Source of the DNA: a virus
Virus record (IMG/VR): IMGVR_UViG_3300046450_000948
Coordinates: 1-30,751 of that record
DNA length: 30,751 nt
Strand: one strand, 5' to 3'
The translations under genes and the position numbers were made by a program. This document shows, piece after piece, positions 261 to 23,486 of the stretch; within the stretch, counting starts at the first letter, position 1, and every line of letters begins with the position of its first letter. Below the pieces are notes generated by a model. The model was not told where the DNA came from and did no database searches. It saw only the letters and a list, made by a program, of their open reading frames with translations.

Positions 261-299
261 CCTACCCACATGGTGGAACAACTCGGAGGGCAGGGTGCT

Positions 300-686
300 A
301 TGGAAGGCATGGCACGTGACCTCATTGGTGAGTTCGGCTGGATCTTTGTGGCCGGTGTAGCTGTCCTGATGTTCCGCGAGTTGGTTCAGAATTTTGCGGC
401 TGGGCTAAAGGTGTACTTCTCCAAACAATGGGCTTTGGACGAGATCGTATTCCTAAACGGGAGGCAAGCTAGGATCGTCCGGATTGGGATGACAGAGACA
501 GTCTTCTACATGTCAGACCGCAAGTCCACAATGAGAATTGAGAACACCAGTTTATCTACTTTGATCTGTGAGAAGATTCTGACTAATCACCAGCCTGATT
601 ACCTACCAAAAGGAAGTGAGTCGTCAGGCCCACTACAAGTCGAGGTCATGCCTCCTAAGAAACCGGTGAGAGCGAAGAGAAAGTAG
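300..686 (+). CDS. Small membrane protein with MscS-like TM3/beta domain
   Basis: 128 residues from ATG 300, chosen because GGAGGG at 285-290 lies 9 nt upstream. An in-frame ATG at 270 has no such site. Residues 13-28 form one hydrophobic helix. They are followed by NFAAGLKVYF (31-40), which resembles the glycine/alanine-rich pore helix TM3 of MscS mechanosensitive channels (NLAAG type). Residues 46-96 then follow the MscS beta-domain pattern: DEIVFLNG, RIVRIGMTETVFY and a RIENTSLSTLI segment in place of the usual IPN motif. The C-terminal 35 residues are Pro/Lys-rich. MscS itself is about 286 residues, so only the pore helix and beta domain are present. The location beside a holin and terminase suggests a membrane role late in infection. 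The channel assignment is from remembered family patterns, not a search. Confidence 0.65.
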   Translation: MEGMARDLIGEFGWIFVAGVAVLMFRELVQNFAAGLKVYFSKQWALDEIVFLNGRQARIVRIGMTETVFYMSDRKSTMRIENTSLSTLICEKILTNHQPDYLPKGSESSGPLQVEVMPPKKPVRAKRK

Positions 687-760: not shown

Positions 761-1021
761 ATGGCTAAATCAAAAACAGCACCACAAAACCCAATCACCG
801 TCAGTGAGATCAACGAAGCCATAGAGTGCTTGAATCTCCTCTTCAATTCAGCTAGTGGGAATCTCCCACCCGGCTTAGTCCCTAGCGCACGAGAGGCTCA
901 GATCAAAGGCCTAAAGGACGCAGGGCAGACCGTAGTGACCCTCCTAGATAAGGCTCATAGCCCTGCCGTCTCTGCGCCAGCCGGTACGGTACCTATGACG
1001 CCGAACGGCGTGGACAACTAA
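761..1021 (+). CDS. Small hypothetical protein in the holin/terminase cluster
   Basis: 86 residues, ATG start after an A-rich leader without a strong Shine-Dalgarno. No motif is recognised. The middle (about residues 15-63) is predicted helical, and the ends are Pro/Ala/Thr-rich and probably disordered. There is no signal peptide or membrane segment. It lies 74 bases after the MscS-like gene and 5 bases before the holin-like gene, so it is probably cotranscribed with them late in infection. A function cannot be assigned from the sequence. Confidence 0.6.
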   Translation: MAKSKTAPQNPITVSEINEAIECLNLLFNSASGNLPPGLVPSAREAQIKGLKDAGQTVVTLLDKAHSPAVSAPAGTVPMTPNGVDN

Positions 1022-1026
1022 GTGCC

Positions 1027-1209
1027 ATGCTAGATGTCTTCAAAATCGTTGGTGTCAATGGTACCGTCATCGGTGTCGTGACACTGACTGATTTTGAATT
1101 GATTTTGAAGGTTACCCTCCTTGTGGTGACCATTGTATGGACAATCGGTAAGGCGACTAACGAATGGCAGACATGGCACAGACGACAAAGACAAAGGAAG
1201 AAAAACTAG
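1027..1209 (+). CDS. Holin-like small membrane protein (gp17.5-like position)
   Basis: 60 residues. One hydrophobic helix at about residues 26-41 (LILKVTLLVVTIVWTI) is followed by a strongly basic tail rich in Arg and Lys (WHRRQRQRKKN). That architecture, plus the position immediately before the small terminase gene, matches the T7 gene 17.5 holin slot (established for T7). Holins form lesions in the inner membrane that trigger lysis. The last 46 nt overlap the small terminase gene in another frame. Sequence identity to T7 holin is not obvious, so the call rests on topology and synteny. Confidence 0.6.
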   Translation: MLDVFKIVGVNGTVIGVVTLTDFELILKVTLLVVTIVWTIGKATNEWQTWHRRQRQRKKN

Positions 1210-1430
1210 GAGGCCTCTTTGAGCTTCTCTGTGACGATATCACCTTTCGGATTCAAGAAGGTACAGCCACTTCTACCGATCTGAACGTAGCTCGTCAGTT
1301 TCTGAAGGATAATGGGATCACTGCGGCTCCAGCAGCGGCTAATCCCCTAGAGGGACTCGTGAATGCCCTCCCTTTCCCGACGGCTGAGAGCCTCGTCAGC
1401 GACTCCGCACCCCTAAAGGTGGGTCAGTAG
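1164..1430 (+). CDS. Small terminase subunit (gp18-like)
   Basis: 88 residues; either ATG 1164 or ATG 1176 may be the start. The core EEKLGGLFELLCDDITFRIQ and the following LNVARQFLKDNGI pattern are typical of T7-like DNA maturase A proteins (gp18 family, about 89 residues in T7), and the length agrees. The protein recognises concatemeric phage DNA and recruits the large subunit for packaging. It overlaps the holin-like gene and is followed after 16 bases by a small lipoprotein gene, then the large terminase gene, as in T7 (18, 18.5/18.7, 19). Confidence 0.85.
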   Translation: MADMAQTTKTKEEKLGGLFELLCDDITFRIQEGTATSTDLNVARQFLKDNGITAAPAAANPLEGLVNALPFPTAESLVSDSAPLKVGQ

Positions 1431-1446: not shown

Positions 1447-1665
1447 ATGACGGTGAAGACCACACCCAGCCCCAAGGCACCACTGCTAGGTCTCCTGACC
1501 CTTCTCCTCATTTGTGGGGGAGGGTGTCAGAACCTCAAGACCGTCGAGGTGGGGTTTGGAGGGCTAGAGGTGGAGTATTTCCCCGGCCCTACGGAGGTAC
1601 TCCCACCGGTGTTTGTCCCCAAGTATGTTCCACGTAAAGTCCTCTTACCACGCACAACTAAGTGA
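1447..1665 (+). CDS. Small proline-rich lipoprotein, candidate outer-membrane spanin
   Basis: 72 residues, ATG preceded by AGAGGA. The N-terminus has a signal sequence with a hydrophobic core (LLGLLTLLLICGGGC) ending in a lipobox-like Cys at residue 27. The mature part is short and rich in Pro and Val. In T7-like phages the two spanin genes 18.5/18.7 (Rz/Rz1) lie between the small and large terminase genes, and Rz1 proteins are small Pro-rich lipoproteins, so an o-spanin role is plausible. I see no Rz-like partner with an N-terminal membrane helix and coiled coil in the same place. The stop overlaps the GTG of the large terminase by 4 nt, suggesting translational coupling. Confidence 0.6.
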   Translation: MTVKTTPSPKAPLLGLLTLLLICGGGCQNLKTVEVGFGGLEVEYFPGPTEVLPPVFVPKYVPRKVLLPRTTK

Positions 1666-3371
1666 AGTGTCCAACGGAATTACTGGACTTTAGGAACTTC
1701 CTCTACCTCACGTGGAAGCATCTAGGGCTCCCTGACCCTACCCCCACCCAGTACGACATAGCTGCGTATGTGGATAATGGGCCCCGACGGTGCTGCATTC
1801 AGGCCTTCCGGGGTGTCGGGAAGAGCTGGATTACGAGTGCCTATGTGTGTCACCAACTCCTCGTCAATCCTTCAGCAAATATCCTCGTGGTTAGTGCTTC
1901 TAAGACCCGAAGTGATGACTTCTCGACGTTTACCCTCCGGCTGATCAATGAGATGCCCGTTCTGAAGCACCTAATTCCCTCAGATGACCAGCGGAGCAGT
2001 AAGATAGCCTTCGATGTACGCCCAGCACCGGCTGCCCACGCCCCGTCCGTTAAGAGCGTAGGGATCACTGGGCAGCTTACTGGCTCGCGGGCTGACTTAA
2101 TCGTGGCTGATGACGTGGAATCCCTAAACAATAGCTTGACCCAGCAGATGAGGGACAAGATTCAGGAGACCATTAAGGAGTTTGACGCTGTCCTCAAGCC
2201 GAGTGGACGGATCGTCTATCTGGGGACACCCCAAACGGAGATGTCCATTTACAATGTCTTACCAGAACGAGGGTACGAAATTAGGGTATGGCCTGCCCGT
2301 ATCCCCACTGAGAAGACCAGAGAAGCCTACGGAGATAGACTCGCTCCCTACATCCTAGCAAAGTGCGAAGAAAAGGCCGAAGGCGCTCCTATTGACCCAG
2401 AAAGGTTCGATGATATTGATCTCAAGGAGAGGGAAGCCTCCTACGGAAAGAGCGGGTTTGCCCTTCAGTACATGCTCGATACCTCCCTATCTGACGTGGG
2501 TAGGTACCCCCTGAAGCTGGCAGACCTGATTGTACACCCCCTCGACTCCGACGTGGCCTCTCCTAAGCTCACTTGGGCCTCCTCCCCAGACCTAATATGC
2601 CAAGACCTTGCCTCTGTCGGCTTAGGGGCTGATCGCTTCTACAGGCCTATGGAGGTCGCTAAGGATCACCAGCCCTATGGGGGAGCCGTCATGGCTATCG
2701 ATCCCGCTGGTATGGGGAAAGACGAAACAGCCTACGCAATCGTTAAGATCCTGAATGGACAACTGTTTCTCACAGCCAGCGGAGGATTCCTAGGGGGATA
2801 CACTCCCCCCATCTTAAAAGCCTTAGGGAGACTTGCAAAAGACAACAAAGTCAATGAGATCATCATAGAGAGCAACTTTGGGGACGGCATGTTCTCTCAG
2901 CTCCTAAAACCAGTCTTAGCAGGGGATATAGGCTATCCAGTGACCATTGAAGAGGTCAAACACTCCACTCAAAAGGAAAGACGAATCATAGACACCCTTG
3001 AGCCCATCCTCAACTCCCATAGGCTCATAGTTGACCCTAAGGTAGTCCTGAATGACCTTGAATGTTGTAGAAGTGATTATGGAAGTGGTCGAACTGACAG
3101 CGAGCTGAGAGCGTCCCTTGTAGGGAGTAGCCAATTGTACCAATTGTTCTACCAACTGTCAAGGCTAACCTTCGATAGGGGTGCCCTTAGGCATGACGAT
3201 AGGCTAGATGCCCTCGCTATAGCCGTCGGTTACTGGGTCGAACACATGGAGAAACACGTAGATCAAGGCGTACAGGACTACTACGAGGACATCCAGAACG
3301 CTGAACTAGAGAAGTTCATGGAGTCCCATAACAAGATGTGGGGGACAGTAGAGAAGACTACGTGGATGTAA
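1662..3371 (+). CDS. Large terminase subunit, packaging ATPase/nuclease (gp19-like)
   Basis: 569 residues (T7 gp19: 586), GTG start overlapping the preceding TGA. Walker A lies at about residues 48-55 (AFRGVGKS). A long stretch nearly identical in pattern to T7 gp19 follows (SVKSVGITGQLTGSRAD, then the Walker B LIVADDVE), then a YLGTPQTEM coupling segment. The C-terminal nuclease domain begins with the acidic strand AIDPAGMGKDE (Asp347) and ends near HDDRLDALAI. The protein cuts concatemers and drives DNA into the prohead through the portal. It is the last gene before the 1.2-kb repeat-rich non-coding stretch, as expected for the right genome end of a T7-like phage. Confidence 0.97.
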   Translation: MKCPTELLDFRNFLYLTWKHLGLPDPTPTQYDIAAYVDNGPRRCCIQAFRGVGKSWITSAYVCHQLLVNPSANILVVSASKTRSDDFSTFTLRLINEMPVLKHLIPSDDQRSSKIAFDVRPAPAAHAPSVKSVGITGQLTGSRADLIVADDVESLNNSLTQQMRDKIQETIKEFDAVLKPSGRIVYLGTPQTEMSIYNVLPERGYEIRVWPARIPTEKTREAYGDRLAPYILAKCEEKAEGAPIDPERFDDIDLKEREASYGKSGFALQYMLDTSLSDVGRYPLKLADLIVHPLDSDVASPKLTWASSPDLICQDLASVGLGADRFYRPMEVAKDHQPYGGAVMAIDPAGMGKDETAYAIVKILNGQLFLTASGGFLGGYTPPILKALGRLAKDNKVNEIIIESNFGDGMFSQLLKPVLAGDIGYPVTIEEVKHSTQKERRIIDTLEPILNSHRLIVDPKVVLNDLECCRSDYGSGRTDSELRASLVGSSQLYQLFYQLSRLTFDRGALRHDDRLDALAIAVGYWVEHMEKHVDQGVQDYYEDIQNAELEKFMESHNKMWGTVEKTTWM

Positions 3372-3684
3372 CCTTTAGTGCAGTTCCCTGTCCGTTACGA
3401 TGTTACTCCCGGTCTCTAATTGGACACCTTTTGGTGCAATAATCCGAGAGGGTACACGTATATTCTATGCGTGATGTTACCCCCCGTGGGGGCTTTATGC
3501 TGGTTCCTCCACTAGTTAACGGCAGTTGAGCTACTGGTTGTTCGTTTGTGTTTGGCTATCTGTCCGGAAGCACCGCATAAATCCCAGTACGCTAACAACA
3601 GCAGGCTAAACCACTGAGCACCTAAGTCTCCATGCCCGGAACACGGCACACAAACAGCGAGCAAGCTCGTAGGGAACGAACGAT

Positions 3685-3760
3685 GCCTCCGGCGGCTCTC
3701 TACGAGGTGCTGAACTAAGCTAGTTCAACCGCAACCTAGCCTCCGGCGGCTCTACGAGGT
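3685..3760 (+). repeat. Direct repeat pair (about 22-24 bp) flanking a hairpin
   Basis: The sequence GCCTCCGGCGGCTCTC followed by TACGAGGT (3685-3708) recurs at 3739-3760 with only one TC dinucleotide missing. Between the copies lies a perfect 7-bp hairpin, TGAACTA-AGC-TAGTTCA (3711-3727). Each copy also sits inside a larger potential stem: CTCGTAG at 3667-3673 pairs with CTACGAG at 3699-3705, and AACCT just before copy 2 pairs with AGGTT at its end. Two copies only, so not a CRISPR. Confidence 0.75.
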
Positions 3761-3920
3761 TACACCGCATGGCGGTGACCAATGCTTCGCAATCAGAGTG
3801 TTCGGTAGGGCCGAAGAGGTTCCTCGGATGCCTCCTCACCAGACGGTCACGGCCCACGCTGGCGCTTGTGGAGCCTACGCAGTCGATGGTGAAGTGGTTC
3901 GCTCGGCTCACAAAGGTAAC

Positions 3921-3927
3921 ACTATCA
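3921..3927 (+). promoter_or_regulatory. ACTATCA motif, candidate phage-RNAP site (non-coding region)
   Basis: Exact ACTATCA preceded by AAC and followed by T. It is one of four copies in the gene-free stretch upstream of the first early gene. The core resembles the CACTATA core of T7-family promoters; promoter function is inferred. Confidence 0.4.
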
Positions 3928-4039
3928 TACACCTCGGATGCACTCGGTATATGGCCACCGAGGAAGCCCTGAGTGCCGCTAAAGCGGAAGGATGACGAGA
4001 GGTTAGCTCACCGCTGGCGCTATTCAATGGGTAATCCAT

Positions 4040-4046
4040 ACTATCA
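4040..4046 (+). promoter_or_regulatory. ACTATCA motif, candidate phage-RNAP site (non-coding region)
   Basis: Exact ACTATCA followed by T, in the gene-free stretch. No clear hairpin follows it. Function inferred from the recurrence of the motif. Confidence 0.35.
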
Positions 4047-4101
4047 TCCTCATTCCATCTATGGTTCACCAACCACGGGCTTCCTCTTCTCCTACAAACG
4101 G

Positions 4102-4108
4102 ACTATCA
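4102..4108 (+). promoter_or_regulatory. ACTATCA motif, candidate phage-RNAP site (non-coding region)
   Basis: Exact ACTATCA running directly into the second copy of the 17-bp direct repeat at 4108-4124. Function inferred. Confidence 0.35.
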
Positions 4109-4265
4109 CCTCGGATGCACTCGGCGCTTTCGTCCTAAGTCGCTACAACCCGGACGCTAACCAAATAGTGAGTCTCTTTAGAGAATAGAGAACGAAGCGG
4201 TTAGCCTCCGAATAACATGGAACCAACCCGAATAGTGATCACGAGCAAGCTCGCTCATAGGTGTT

Positions 4266-4296
4266 ACTATCAAAGAGGACGCAGGCTTACCTCTTT
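4266..4296 (+). promoter_or_regulatory. ACTATCA motif abutting a 7-bp hairpin upstream of the first early gene
   Basis: ACTATCA at 4266-4272 is followed without a gap by a perfect hairpin: AAAGAGG (4272-4278), an 11-nt loop, and CCTCTTT (4290-4296). The same order, motif then hairpin, is seen at 4966, 5771 and 9975. If the motif is a promoter, the hairpin would form at or near the 5' end of the transcript and could protect it. Confidence 0.5.
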
Positions 4297-4570
4297 GGGG
4301 GGTCGCTGCACGACGGCAGATTCTCAGTAGTTACTCTGAGTAAAGAACACGACCGCTTACGCTGTGATGAGATTCGGCCCTGCTTGCGTTTTTCCGGCTC
4401 CTTGAGCCGCCTTCGGCGACCTCGAATAACGTCGCTTACCTCGCATGAGAGCGTAGCAGCTAGCTCGGTCGGAAAAATGACGTTCCATCTTATCTAGGTT
4501 TTTATGTCTTGTGTGGGTAATGGCCGACGTGGCTGTTCACGCAAGTCAAAAAGAAAGATAACAGATACAT

Positions 4571-5821: not shown

Positions 5822-6028
5822 ATGAACGATACAGAGAAAAGCGAGCTCATCCAGTGGGCTCAAGACCACTATCACAGTCTGTGCGGCGTCTCCGGTGGCA
5901 TCAAAGCCATCTGGCATCCTGTTGTACGTCGCGAAATGCGGCGGCTCCGGGCTTCGCAGATGCGGCGGTTCAAGGAGATTGTCCTCGCCCAAGCCGTCAC
6001 CCCTATTTACCCGAAAGGGGGAAAGTAA
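5822..6028 (+). CDS. Small basic hypothetical protein
   Basis: 68 residues, ATG after an A/C-rich leader. The C-terminal half is Arg-rich (RREMRRLRASQMRRFKE), predicted helical, possibly nucleic-acid binding, but no family is recognised. It contains an internal ACTATCA at 5868 (encoding HYH). The stop overlaps the next start (TAATG at 6026-6030), so it is probably translationally coupled to the RlpA-like gene. Confidence 0.65.
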   Translation: MNDTEKSELIQWAQDHYHSLCGVSGGIKAIWHPVVRREMRRLRASQMRRFKEIVLAQAVTPIYPKGGK

Positions 6029-6387
6029 TGGGGATCTACAGACTTGCGCTGTCGGTAATTCTTGGAGGCTCATGCTTCTTCCTATTTGCCGAATCGAATG
6101 AAACGACAACAGCCTCCTATTACGGTGAGAAATACCGGGGCAAACCAACCGCATCGGGTGAATTATTCAACCCAGATAAGCTGACGGCAGCCATGTGGGA
6201 CGTGCCCTTCGGCTCCCTAATCGAAGTTCACTATCATGACAAGGTAGTGGTGGTCAGGATCAACGACCGAGGCCCTGCCAAAAGGCTCAAGAGAGGCATC
6301 GACCTCTCGAAGGCTGCCTTCAAAGCGCTGGCTCCACTTGAGCTAGGCCTGATAAAAGTCAAACTAATCAAAAGGAAGGGCATATGA
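6028..6387 (+). CDS. Secreted RlpA-like double-psi beta-barrel protein
   Basis: 119 residues. ATG 6028 is preceded by AAAGGGGG and overlaps the previous stop, so a longer in-frame extension upstream (to 5854) is rejected. Residues 1-21 look like a signal peptide. The rest is a nearly complete RlpA-type DPBB domain: ASYYGEKYRGKPTASGE (29-45), LTAAMWDVPFG (52-62), VVVVRINDRGP (73-83), IDLSKAAFKAL. In Pseudomonas RlpA, a lytic transglycosylase acting on denuded glycan strands, conserved Glu, His and Asp are important. Here Glu45 and Asp80 are present but the His position appears to be Met56. It lacks the SPOR domain of cellular RlpA. It probably acts on cell-wall glycan in the periplasm; an early-region wall enzyme is unusual. 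It may be inactive or altered because of the His change. Confidence 0.85.
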   Translation: MGIYRLALSVILGGSCFFLFAESNETTTASYYGEKYRGKPTASGELFNPDKLTAAMWDVPFGSLIEVHYHDKVVVVRINDRGPAKRLKRGIDLSKAAFKALAPLELGLIKVKLIKRKGI

Positions 6388-21837: not shown

Positions 21838-22575
21838 ATGGAGAGAGTAACCTTTGGAGACCACGACACAGGCCCTGACCCCGACGGGATTGCCCCGGCG
21901 GAAGAGGGCGAGCAAATTGAACCACAAGTTGAGGAGGTAGACGACGAGTCATCCTCAGACCGACCTGAATGGCTGCCGGACAAGTTCTCCAATGCGGAAG
22001 CACTTGCCCAAGCCTACTCTTCGCTTGAGCGGAGGATGTCTTCCCAAAGCGCAGACGCTAAGGGCCTGCTTTCGCCTCAAGAGTTTGAGCAGTATGAGGA
22101 GGAGTACCGGGACAAGGGGGAACTAACAGACGACAGCTATGCAGCCCTCGTGAAGAAGGGGCTCGGCCGTGACCTTGTAGATCGGTACATCGAGGGGCAA
22201 CAGCTTGCTGCCACGGCAGAAGAAGGACGAGTGTACGATATGACTGGTGGTCAGGAGGGGTACCAAGCGATGGGCGAGTGGATGGCCGATAGCTTATCCT
22301 CTGATGAAGTAGATAGCTTTAATGAGGCCGTTGACATAGGCGGACAGTTGATGGACGCAGCCGTTAAAGGGATGCATGCACGATTCGTGGCTGCTGGAGG
22401 TGAGGCACCGAGTGAGCCCAACCTCCTTCAAGGCTCAAATGCTCCCAACGTAGGGGGCTATGGTTCCCTGTATGAAATGAAGCAAGACATGTCCAACCCT
22501 CTCTACAAAGCCGGAGACACACGGTTCCACGCAATGGTAGACAAACGACTTTCCTTAACGGGGAACATCACATGA
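21838..22575 (+). CDS. Scaffolding (capsid assembly) protein (gp9-like)
   Basis: 245 residues (T7 gp9: 307), very acidic over the first 45 residues (EEGEQIEPQVEEVDDESSSD). The RPEWLPDKFSNAEALAQAYSSLE segment is a hallmark of T7-like scaffolds. It is followed by long helical stretches and a basic C-terminal helix (YKAGDTRFHAMVDKRLSL), which in this family binds the capsid protein. It directs prohead assembly and is then expelled. Ends with 4-nt overlap (ATGA) to the next gene. Confidence 0.9.
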   Translation: MERVTFGDHDTGPDPDGIAPAEEGEQIEPQVEEVDDESSSDRPEWLPDKFSNAEALAQAYSSLERRMSSQSADAKGLLSPQEFEQYEEEYRDKGELTDDSYAALVKKGLGRDLVDRYIEGQQLAATAEEGRVYDMTGGQEGYQAMGEWMADSLSSDEVDSFNEAVDIGGQLMDAAVKGMHARFVAAGGEAPSEPNLLQGSNAPNVGGYGSLYEMKQDMSNPLYKAGDTRFHAMVDKRLSLTGNIT

Positions 22576-22907
22576 ACAAAAAAATCATCCTAATTGGAGC
22601 CCTCTTGGTGACCACCTTGAGCGCTAACGCTGGAGTATTCGGGGCAAAGCTGAAGCCTGTCCCAAGTATTACCCTCTTCGGTCAGACTCTGAGCTGGGCT
22701 ATCCCCTCTCTGTGTGCTGGCAAAGCTGCTGGAGTCCTACCAGACGCCTCGATCTCTGCGAAGGGCATCACCTTCAAGGTTCCCTATCTGGCCATTGAGC
22801 TTCCCTTCCCCTTGCTCACCCTTGCAATGCAGGGGACAACGGTGGAGTTAAAACTGGGAGAGGTTACCAAACACAAGCAAGAGGAGGCAACAGATGTCAG
22901 CGAATAA
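22572..22907 (+). CDS. Exported hypothetical protein
   Basis: 111 residues. Residues 1-20 form a standard signal peptide (MNKKIILIGALLVTTLSANA, cleavage after ANA). The mature part is mainly beta-prone and hydrophobic, with a single Cys near residue 48 and a charged C-terminus (KHKQEEATDVSE). There is no lysozyme or spanin motif. It overlaps both neighbours and opens a cluster of membrane/envelope proteins (holin-like, lipoprotein) between scaffold and capsid, so a lysis or envelope role is possible. Confidence 0.65.
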   Translation: MNKKIILIGALLVTTLSANAGVFGAKLKPVPSITLFGQTLSWAIPSLCAGKAAGVLPDASISAKGITFKVPYLAIELPFPLLTLAMQGTTVELKLGEVTKHKQEEATDVSE

Positions 22908-23196
22908 GCAAAAACCCCTAGACCTCGCTCCCGTAGCTGTGAAGCTAGAGACCGTAGTGGTTGCAGAGCCAGTGACGAAGAAACCGGGGTACAAATCCAC
23001 CGAGTTCTACATGAGCATGGCTGCTGTAGTCATTGGGGCTATCGCTTCTTCAGGGATATTGGACGGTAGTGACGGGCTGACGAAGATCGTTGGGCTCATC
23101 ATGACCGCCCTCGTAGCCCTCGGTTACACCGGCTCCCGATTGACCATTAAGAAACTAGACGCGAAGGCCAGTGAAGGTAATAGCGATAATACTTAA
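22894..23196 (+). CDS. Holin-like membrane protein (two helices)
   Basis: 100 residues. Two hydrophobic helices at about 40-55 (SMAAVVIGAIASSGIL) and 64-80 (TKIVGLIMTALVALGYT) are separated by a short Asp-containing turn. A charged N-terminus and a short basic C-terminus (TIKKLDAK) follow the layout of phage holins with two spans. The GYTGSR end of the second helix is common in small phage holin families. It precedes a lipoprotein gene, as in lysis cassettes. It is the second holin-like gene of the window besides 1027-1209; one may be an antiholin or membrane protein of another use. Confidence 0.65.
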   Translation: MSANKQKPLDLAPVAVKLETVVVAEPVTKKPGYKSTEFYMSMAAVVIGAIASSGILDGSDGLTKIVGLIMTALVALGYTGSRLTIKKLDAKASEGNSDNT

Positions 23197-23341
23197 AGAA
23201 ATCCTGCGTTTACTCTGGAATGAAAGCGGAAAAGCGGTCACAGCCTCGGTTGCTCCTATCGTTGCTCGCAGTATGCGTGACGCTTGGAAGCAGCGGATGC
23301 TTGACAAGTGGAAAAAGAGTCGTCTTTATCCCAACAAGTGA
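23171..23341 (+). CDS. Possible overlapping small gene nested with the lipoprotein gene
   Basis: A 56-residue frame from GTG 23171 to TGA 23339-23341 overlaps the holin-like gene end and the first 122 nt of the lipoprotein gene in another frame. The product is helical and basic with Trp residues (VKVIAIILKEILRLLWNESG ... DAWKQRMLDKWKKSRLYPNK), not the random composition of most shadow frames. Nested Rz/Rz1 spanin genes have this arrangement, but this frame is short and its N-terminal hydrophobic stretch is weak. No start site signal is clear. Confidence 0.4.
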   Translation: MKVIAIILKEILRLLWNESGKAVTASVAPIVARSMRDAWKQRMLDKWKKSRLYPNK

Positions 23342-23486
23342 CACGCTGGTTCGTTTAGGGCCAAATGTCACAGGCCGAGTCTACTATTGGACAGGCAAAG
23401 AGTGGGAACTCTCTCAAAACAGAGTCACTCTTCCTGAAGGATGGTTAGCTGGGCCGTTAGATTTACCCGAAGGGGAAGCCGAATAG
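23220..23486 (+). CDS. Small lipoprotein, possible o-spanin
   Basis: 88 residues. Signal peptide with basic start (MKAEKRSQPR), hydrophobic core (LLLSLLAVCVTLGSS) and a lipobox-like Cys27 (SSGC). The mature part reads VFIPTSDTLVRLGPNVTGRVYYW, then RVTLPEGWLAGPLDLPEGE. This is a pattern I associate with small phage lipoproteins coded after holins. Its place after a two-helix holin-like gene supports a lysis role at the outer membrane. It is not as Pro-rich as classic Rz1. Confidence 0.65.
   Translation: MKAEKRSQPRLLLSLLAVCVTLGSSGCLTSGKRVVFIPTSDTLVRLGPNVTGRVYYWTGKEWELSQNRVTLPEGWLAGPLDLPEGEAE

Follow-up and report, generated by a model that had tools for sequence, protein, structure and literature searches.

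A phage family of minimal MscS-like proteins and its small lipoprotein partner

Introduction

What might a phage do with a protein which resembles the pore helix and the beta-domain of MscS and is encoded close to its packaging genes? The question is raised by a gene near the start of an IMG/VR virus record (IMGVR_UViG_3300046450_000948, positions 1 to 30,751), and this whole stretch of 30,751 nucleotides is referred to below as the window. For the TM3 plus beta-domain architecture, the only precedent found was microsporidian MscS2: according to PMC11262690, the protein of Nematocida displodere consists of TMH3 and the beta-domain only, was resolved as a homo-heptamer by cryo-EM, and represents an extreme N-terminal truncation which, to the knowledge of its authors, is unique to microsporidia. 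In the literature on MscS in phages, only three reports were found to be relevant (PMC6163359, PMC9239159 and PMC13288924). One of them describes gp51 of the Paraglaciecola phage PANV1 (MW805361, a 151-kb myovirus), which matches MscS 6RLD in HHpred with a probability of 99.7 and which, compared by its description, shares with the family studied here a single, weakly predicted TM helix; neither a partner nor a function is discussed in the accessible text (PMC9239159).

With a phage family of this kind there would be two natural cases of an MscS reduced to pore helix and beta-ring, this one being the first established in viruses of bacteria, and it would provide a simple way to ask what a minimal MscS pore can do. 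The results below suggest that, together with a small lipoprotein, the protein makes up a two-part phage device of the bacterial envelope which has gone unrecognised; should the two act in lysis or exclusion, they would add a mechanism missed by current annotation.

The gene and its protein

The gene and the parts of its product are located as follows.

270..686, + strand: MscS-like minimal protein, 138 aa, TM3 and beta-domain (ORF, PF00924, relatives, dN/dS)
270..338, + strand: conserved N-terminal acidic segment, residues 1-23, E..GxA..L.GE, predicted to be periplasmic (alignments, charge bias)
339..419, + strand: TM3a/TM3b-like helix, residues 24-50 (HMM alignment, hhalign, MSL1 and YnaI alignments, helix 8-51 of a low-confidence model)
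420..581, + strand: MscS beta-domain, residues 51-104 (PF00924, hhalign, weak VIA-align matches)
582..686, + strand: short basic C-terminal tail in place of the MscS vestibule, stop codon included (sequence and alignments)

The original prediction had placed the gene at 300-686. The ORF is real, but this start is probably 30 bases too late: a Shine-Dalgarno-like GGAGG precedes the alternative start at 300, and 270 is to be preferred because the 10 residues encoded by 270-299 are kept in the alignments of relatives. As had been proposed, a TM3-like segment (NFAAGLKVYF) is joined to the beta-domain within this ORF, an arrangement borne out by PF00924, by hhalign and by a cellular HMM (see below). 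The sole hydrophobic segment comprises residues 24-35 and continues into an amphipathic segment (36-50), the two being aligned with MscS TM3a/TM3b. At the TM3 kink there is a charged pair, R36-E37 in the window protein and K-D in most relatives, and K-D or R-D is also found in the alignments at the kink of YnaI/MSL1-type MscS; similarly, the phage family has E/D where E. coli MscS has its hinge Gly, as in the YnaI/MSL1 types. The MscS PN motif reads EN in the window protein and VPN in most relatives, while the N-x-x-x-G of TM3b and the hydrophobic pattern of the pore helix are retained in the HMM alignment.

The lack of TM1, TM2 and the large C-terminal domain had also been proposed, and TM1, TM2 and the vestibule are absent from all the members read. 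With one hydrophobic segment only, the TM1-TM2 tension-sensing paddle is missing, and the protein ends about 35 aa past the beta-domain, with no alpha/beta and beta-barrel vestibule. Two defining parts of the canonical MscS channel, paddle and vestibule, were thus tested for and are absent, and the protein is not a canonical MscS channel. As regards orientation, the net charge is lower before the TM segment than after it in all 40 non-redundant members (means of -2.8 and +1.3), and from this bias the N-terminus is predicted to lie outside and the beta-domain in the cytoplasm, as for MscS TM3. An AlphaFold model built with 7 close sequences was of low confidence (pLDDT 47, pTM 0.22) and gave only a pattern of a helix (residues 8-51) followed by strands; in this low-confidence model, residues 55-107, in the beta part, weakly match FLYC1 and MSL10 in VIA-align.

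Homology with MscS

Taken alone, the window protein scores below the cut-off of PF00924 (17.4 against 20.2 bits, E=0.005). The lack of a profile match to the MscS beta-domain had been named beforehand as the result which would count against the assignment, and the check, made in the relatives, did not refute it: PF00924 is matched by 39 of 40 non-redundant members, drawn from the best 80 of at least 147 stretches, with a best value of 1.7e-7, while any other family is matched by two of the 40 at most. Moreover, 5 of 12 close-relative contigs exceeded the PF00924 cut-off in a six-frame search, and two relatives reached 28.5 (L175) and 26.3 bits (L177), both carrying the MscS VPN motif. Compared by hhalign with 30 cellular MscS sequences, the family gave P 95.95 and E 5e-9, the E-value falling from 1.9e-6 to 1.4e-8 and then to 5e-9 as the phage alignment was deepened (all single-comparison values). 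An HMM of cellular MscS scored phage members at 15.2-24.7 bits and shuffled sequences which kept the N-terminal/TM/C-terminal layout at 7.9 bits at most (n=4,500). In both the HMM and the hhalign alignments, the match runs continuously from TM3b into the beta-domain.

Searches against the PDB gave weak results. The best 17 chains for L177 all belong to the MscS family and all match over TM3 and the beta-domain, each match being individually weak. With hmmsearch, family profile A1 found nothing, profile A7 ranked ORC1 and SufE chains above MscS (E>0.07), and profile A8, of 40 sequences, ranked MscS/YnaI first (E 0.16-1). On these sequence-profile comparisons, the resemblance to MscS is beyond chance and, by domain homology, the phage family belongs to the MscS superfamily; that the protein works like an MscS pore is something we infer.

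In relation to canonical members of PF00924 (MscS, YnaI, MscK, MSL1), TM3b and the beta-domain of the phage proteins are collinear and the predicted orientation is the same, whereas the TM1/TM2 paddle and the alpha/beta and barrel vestibule are missing; the N-terminal E..GxA..L.GE segment, a C-terminal Y-L-P-K-G tail and the lipoprotein partner described below are, in turn, specific to the phages. Microsporidian MscS2 has the same TM3 plus beta-domain architecture, a likeness in architecture only, but is eukaryotic, acquired from bacteria, and has no lipoprotein partner reported in the accessible text of PMC11262690. Judged from its sequences, the phage family is a second occurrence of that MscS truncation.

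Distribution and selection

At least 147 IMG/VR stretches encode relatives, as found with a profile built from close and distant members, and the best 80 of these 147 were examined. The close relatives came from scans of viral contigs and the distant ones were exposed by a scan with the partner lipoprotein; since near-identical loci are common among the best 80, counts refer to a set reduced at 90% identity. Most members have about 139-170 aa, the longest ones reflecting upstream alternative starts. Between relatives, dN/dS is 0.045-0.08, with dS near saturation, which shows that the protein is functional and not debris. The term fragment used in the original prediction has to be abandoned: under strong purifying selection, stable in length and with N- and C-terminal parts that are conserved and its own, this is a complete gene family.

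The pair of MscS-like and lipoprotein genes occurs with at least four terminase types, mutually unrelated or barely related (that of the window; that of G001, G004 and L003; that of G005; that of G010 and G011), and also in contigs of 144-170 kb, where its neighbours are phoH and sigma-factor-like genes. Among 50,697 deposited phage records, nothing related convincingly by sequence was found; by tblastn against deposited phages, the window protein gave chance-level matches only and L020, L177 and L226 gave none. Most of the other MscS matches there fall in assemblies of bacteria or in small 'phage' records with no annotation, which may be host DNA, and were set aside. In PHROGs, no significant match was obtained for the window protein or its relatives L175, L177, L179 and L182, and a scan of GTDB genomes did not find a cellular relative of the phage family.

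The lipoprotein partner

The window belongs to a T7-like podovirus, with a T7-type RNA polymerase, endonuclease I, T7 helicase-primase, family A DNA polymerase, head-tail connector, gp10A-like capsid and T7-type terminases. Downstream of the MscS-like gene it carries the following genes.

761..1021, + strand: 86-aa module gene, positional equivalent of 68-117-aa genes in relatives (no significant family match)
1027..1209, + strand: 60-aa single-TM protein, holin candidate by position, in the T7 gp17.5 slot (no significant family match)
1164..1430, + strand: terminase small subunit, TerS (PF11123 5e-16, phrog_891)
1447..1665, + strand: partner lipoprotein, 72 aa, Cys27, slightly atypical lipobox GGGC, motif VEVGFGGLEVEYFP (alignment A6; its relatives adjoin the MscS-like gene elsewhere)
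1662..3371, + strand: terminase large subunit, TerL, T7 type (75-80% identical to L191 and L186)

The terminase neighbours bear out the proposed location in a lysis/packaging cluster, here that of a T7-like phage. Of the holin and terminase neighbours originally named, the terminases stand, through PF11123 and TerL, while the holin rests on its position, with no significant family match. For the MscS-like protein itself, the single TM and the location would suit a holin, and no PHROG or Pfam holin match was obtained.

What that account had missed was the co-inherited lipoprotein, the most informative feature of the locus. In 27 of 39 non-redundant loci (from the best 80 of 147), a lipoprotein gene lies directly downstream of the MscS-like gene, overlapping it by 4 bases in 24 of them, which is the layout of overlapped spanins, with adjoining or overlapping genes for an inner-membrane protein and a lipoprotein; as background, only 6 of 185 other genes of the same loci are directly followed by a lipoprotein. 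One further locus with a downstream lipoprotein is L227, five loci have a similar lipoprotein just upstream of the MscS-like gene, and in L254, L267 and L268 none was found near it. The lipoproteins, presumably lipid-anchored judging from their sequences, have in common a core of the kind NIKSLEVDFGGLDVEYFP or VDLSITGLEMEFY and, in many cases, an LM.M..K tail. In the window, the lipoprotein gene stands three genes away from the MscS-like gene, between TerS and TerL, an interval with no other + strand ORF of at least 60 aa; in T7, this is the position of the spanin genes. In L003 the module is longer, with the MscS-like gene, the lipoprotein, two small genes, a 52-aa TM protein, a signal-peptide protein, a 58-aa TM protein and a 126-aa product, followed by a terminase gene on the opposite strand.

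The same lipoprotein is also found with another neighbour. In the T7-like L186 and L191, whose terminases are 80% and 75% identical to that of the window, and in L185, a TM plus coiled-coil protein of 94-100 aa (phrog_18771) is encoded beside it. The MscS-like gene was not found in these three contigs, which are incomplete, in a search with no positive control; conversely, the coiled-coil gene was not found in 17 contigs with the MscS-like gene, also incomplete, in a single-protein search with no positive control. From these sequences, it looks like one membrane partner of the lipoprotein has been replaced by another. In L191, a gene resembling DXD glycosyltransferases (3076-3723; PF04488, 8e-6) is inserted immediately ahead of the coiled-coil/lipoprotein pair.

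Possible function

The reading we prefer, with a probability of roughly 0.4, is that an MscS-like ring and the lipoprotein make up a two-part envelope device, acting most likely late in infection, at lysis. The two proteins would be made together; the TM3 pore helix and beta-domain protein would form an oligomeric ring in the inner membrane, heptameric by analogy, with its N-terminus in the periplasm and its beta-ring in the cytoplasm, and would either permeabilise or depolarise this membrane or gate or position the lytic machinery, while the lipoprotein would act at the outer membrane. A ring is plausible because heptamers are formed by microsporidian MscS2, which consists of these two parts as well. 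The late packaging genes, the small TM proteins and the T7 spanin position of the lipoprotein speak for a late step at the envelope, for instance lysis. Against a lysis device, the likely holin slot is already filled by another small TM protein, in L226 and L264 (144-170 kb) the pair lies outside any recognisable lysis block, and L254, L267 and L268 show no lipoprotein close to the MscS-like gene. Also, E. coli MscS deprived of both vestibule domains fails to insert into membranes, as cited in PMC11262690. More tentatively, a wider proposal may be advanced: a two-component lysis/envelope system in which a minimal MscS heptamer would replace the coiled-coil protein as the inner-membrane partner of the lipoprotein, spread across unrelated phages, and would stand as a prokaryotic counterpart, independent in origin, of the most compact MscS channels known.

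The main rival, which we consider less likely, is superinfection exclusion. The lipoprotein would shield the phage receptor or injection site at the outer membrane, and the MscS-like ring in the inner membrane would block DNA entry or restore the ion gradient following a second injection; in T5, Llp is a known phage lipoprotein mediating superinfection exclusion (PMC9586334). The pair does follow the tail-fibre region directly in most podovirus-type loci, a likeness to Llp-type systems that is suggestive only, and in L226 and L264 the MscS-like gene stands next to phoH, with a divergent promoter region of its own. Nevertheless, the window and its T7-like relatives carry the genes in the late packaging/lysis interval, and the core and tail motifs of the lipoprotein are common to unrelated phages, whereas receptor blockers would be expected to vary with the receptor.

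An unusual two-component spanin, with MscS-like inner-membrane and lipoprotein outer-membrane subunits disrupting the outer membrane, is quite improbable. The window lipoprotein occupies the T7 spanin position, and a TM plus coiled-coil protein fills the same slot in L185, L186 and L191. As in Rz/Rz1 and T7 gp18.5/18.7, genes for an inner-membrane protein and a small lipoprotein overlap in the lysis/packaging interval, the layout of overlapped spanins (PMC6139136). However, a canonical spanin is disfavoured by the predicted topology: in lambda-type i-spanins, a TM at the N-terminus is joined to a mostly helical periplasmic domain (PMC6139136), whereas the charge bias (40 of 40 N-out/C-in) and the MscS beta-domain predict the opposite orientation, with the main domain in the cytoplasm. 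Moreover, the two periplasmic parts seem not long enough to bridge the periplasm.

Little probability is likewise given to an ion or osmotic valve or a modulator of host channels, a protein which would form a small ion pore adjusting turgor or proton-motive force, or which would mix its TM3/beta interface into host MscS heptamers and alter them. What the protein has kept of MscS is the pore helix, with its hydrophobic pattern and the N-x-x-x-G of TM3b, and the inter-subunit ring, but MscS-type tension gating is unlikely in a protein with no TM1-TM2 tension sensor, and the linkage with the lipoprotein would be left unexplained. Finally, a membrane-anchored beta protein resembling MscS by chance, as the sub-threshold Pfam score of the window protein alone and the A7 ranking might suggest, is largely refuted and very improbable in view of the collinear TM3 plus beta match, the VPN of relatives, the 39 of 40 members matching PF00924 and the far lower scores of shuffled sequences. 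A role as a virion or ejection protein was also considered, the gene preceding internal-protein-like genes in some contigs, and was judged less likely, this not being so in the window.

Other features of the loci

Several further features were recorded. In the window, about 1.2 kb between the terminase and the next clear gene (3372-4570) holds only short overlapping ORFs and is probably a genome-end/early-promoter region. The best endolysin candidate of the window is a secreted RlpA-like DPBB protein (6025-6384; PF03330, 1.3e-17). Ahead of the capsid gene (22572-23486), a signal-peptide protein, a 2-TM holin-like protein and a second small lipoprotein are encoded, and in L003 and L044 look-alikes of this signal-peptide protein adjoin the MscS-like module.

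In several phages (L011:7673-7897, L044:10390-10614, L177:3308-3541), the gene immediately upstream of the MscS-like one encodes a protein of 74-77 aa with a prepilin-like N-terminal motif, HT[IL][LI]E[LV]L[LI]VI (N_methyl E 0.026, phrog pilin E 0.034). The T4 late promoter TATAAATA was found upstream of the MscS-like gene in 0 of 61 relatives. In those relatives where the gene is divergent from phoH, the start of the MscS-like gene is preceded, at a distance of about 20-35 bases, by a palindrome, TTACAC(N7-8)GTGTAA (L264:5900-5918, L230:5894, L259:5891, L226:5877 and others); it is usually the sole copy in a locus of 11-12 kb and, from its sequence, is likely an operator.
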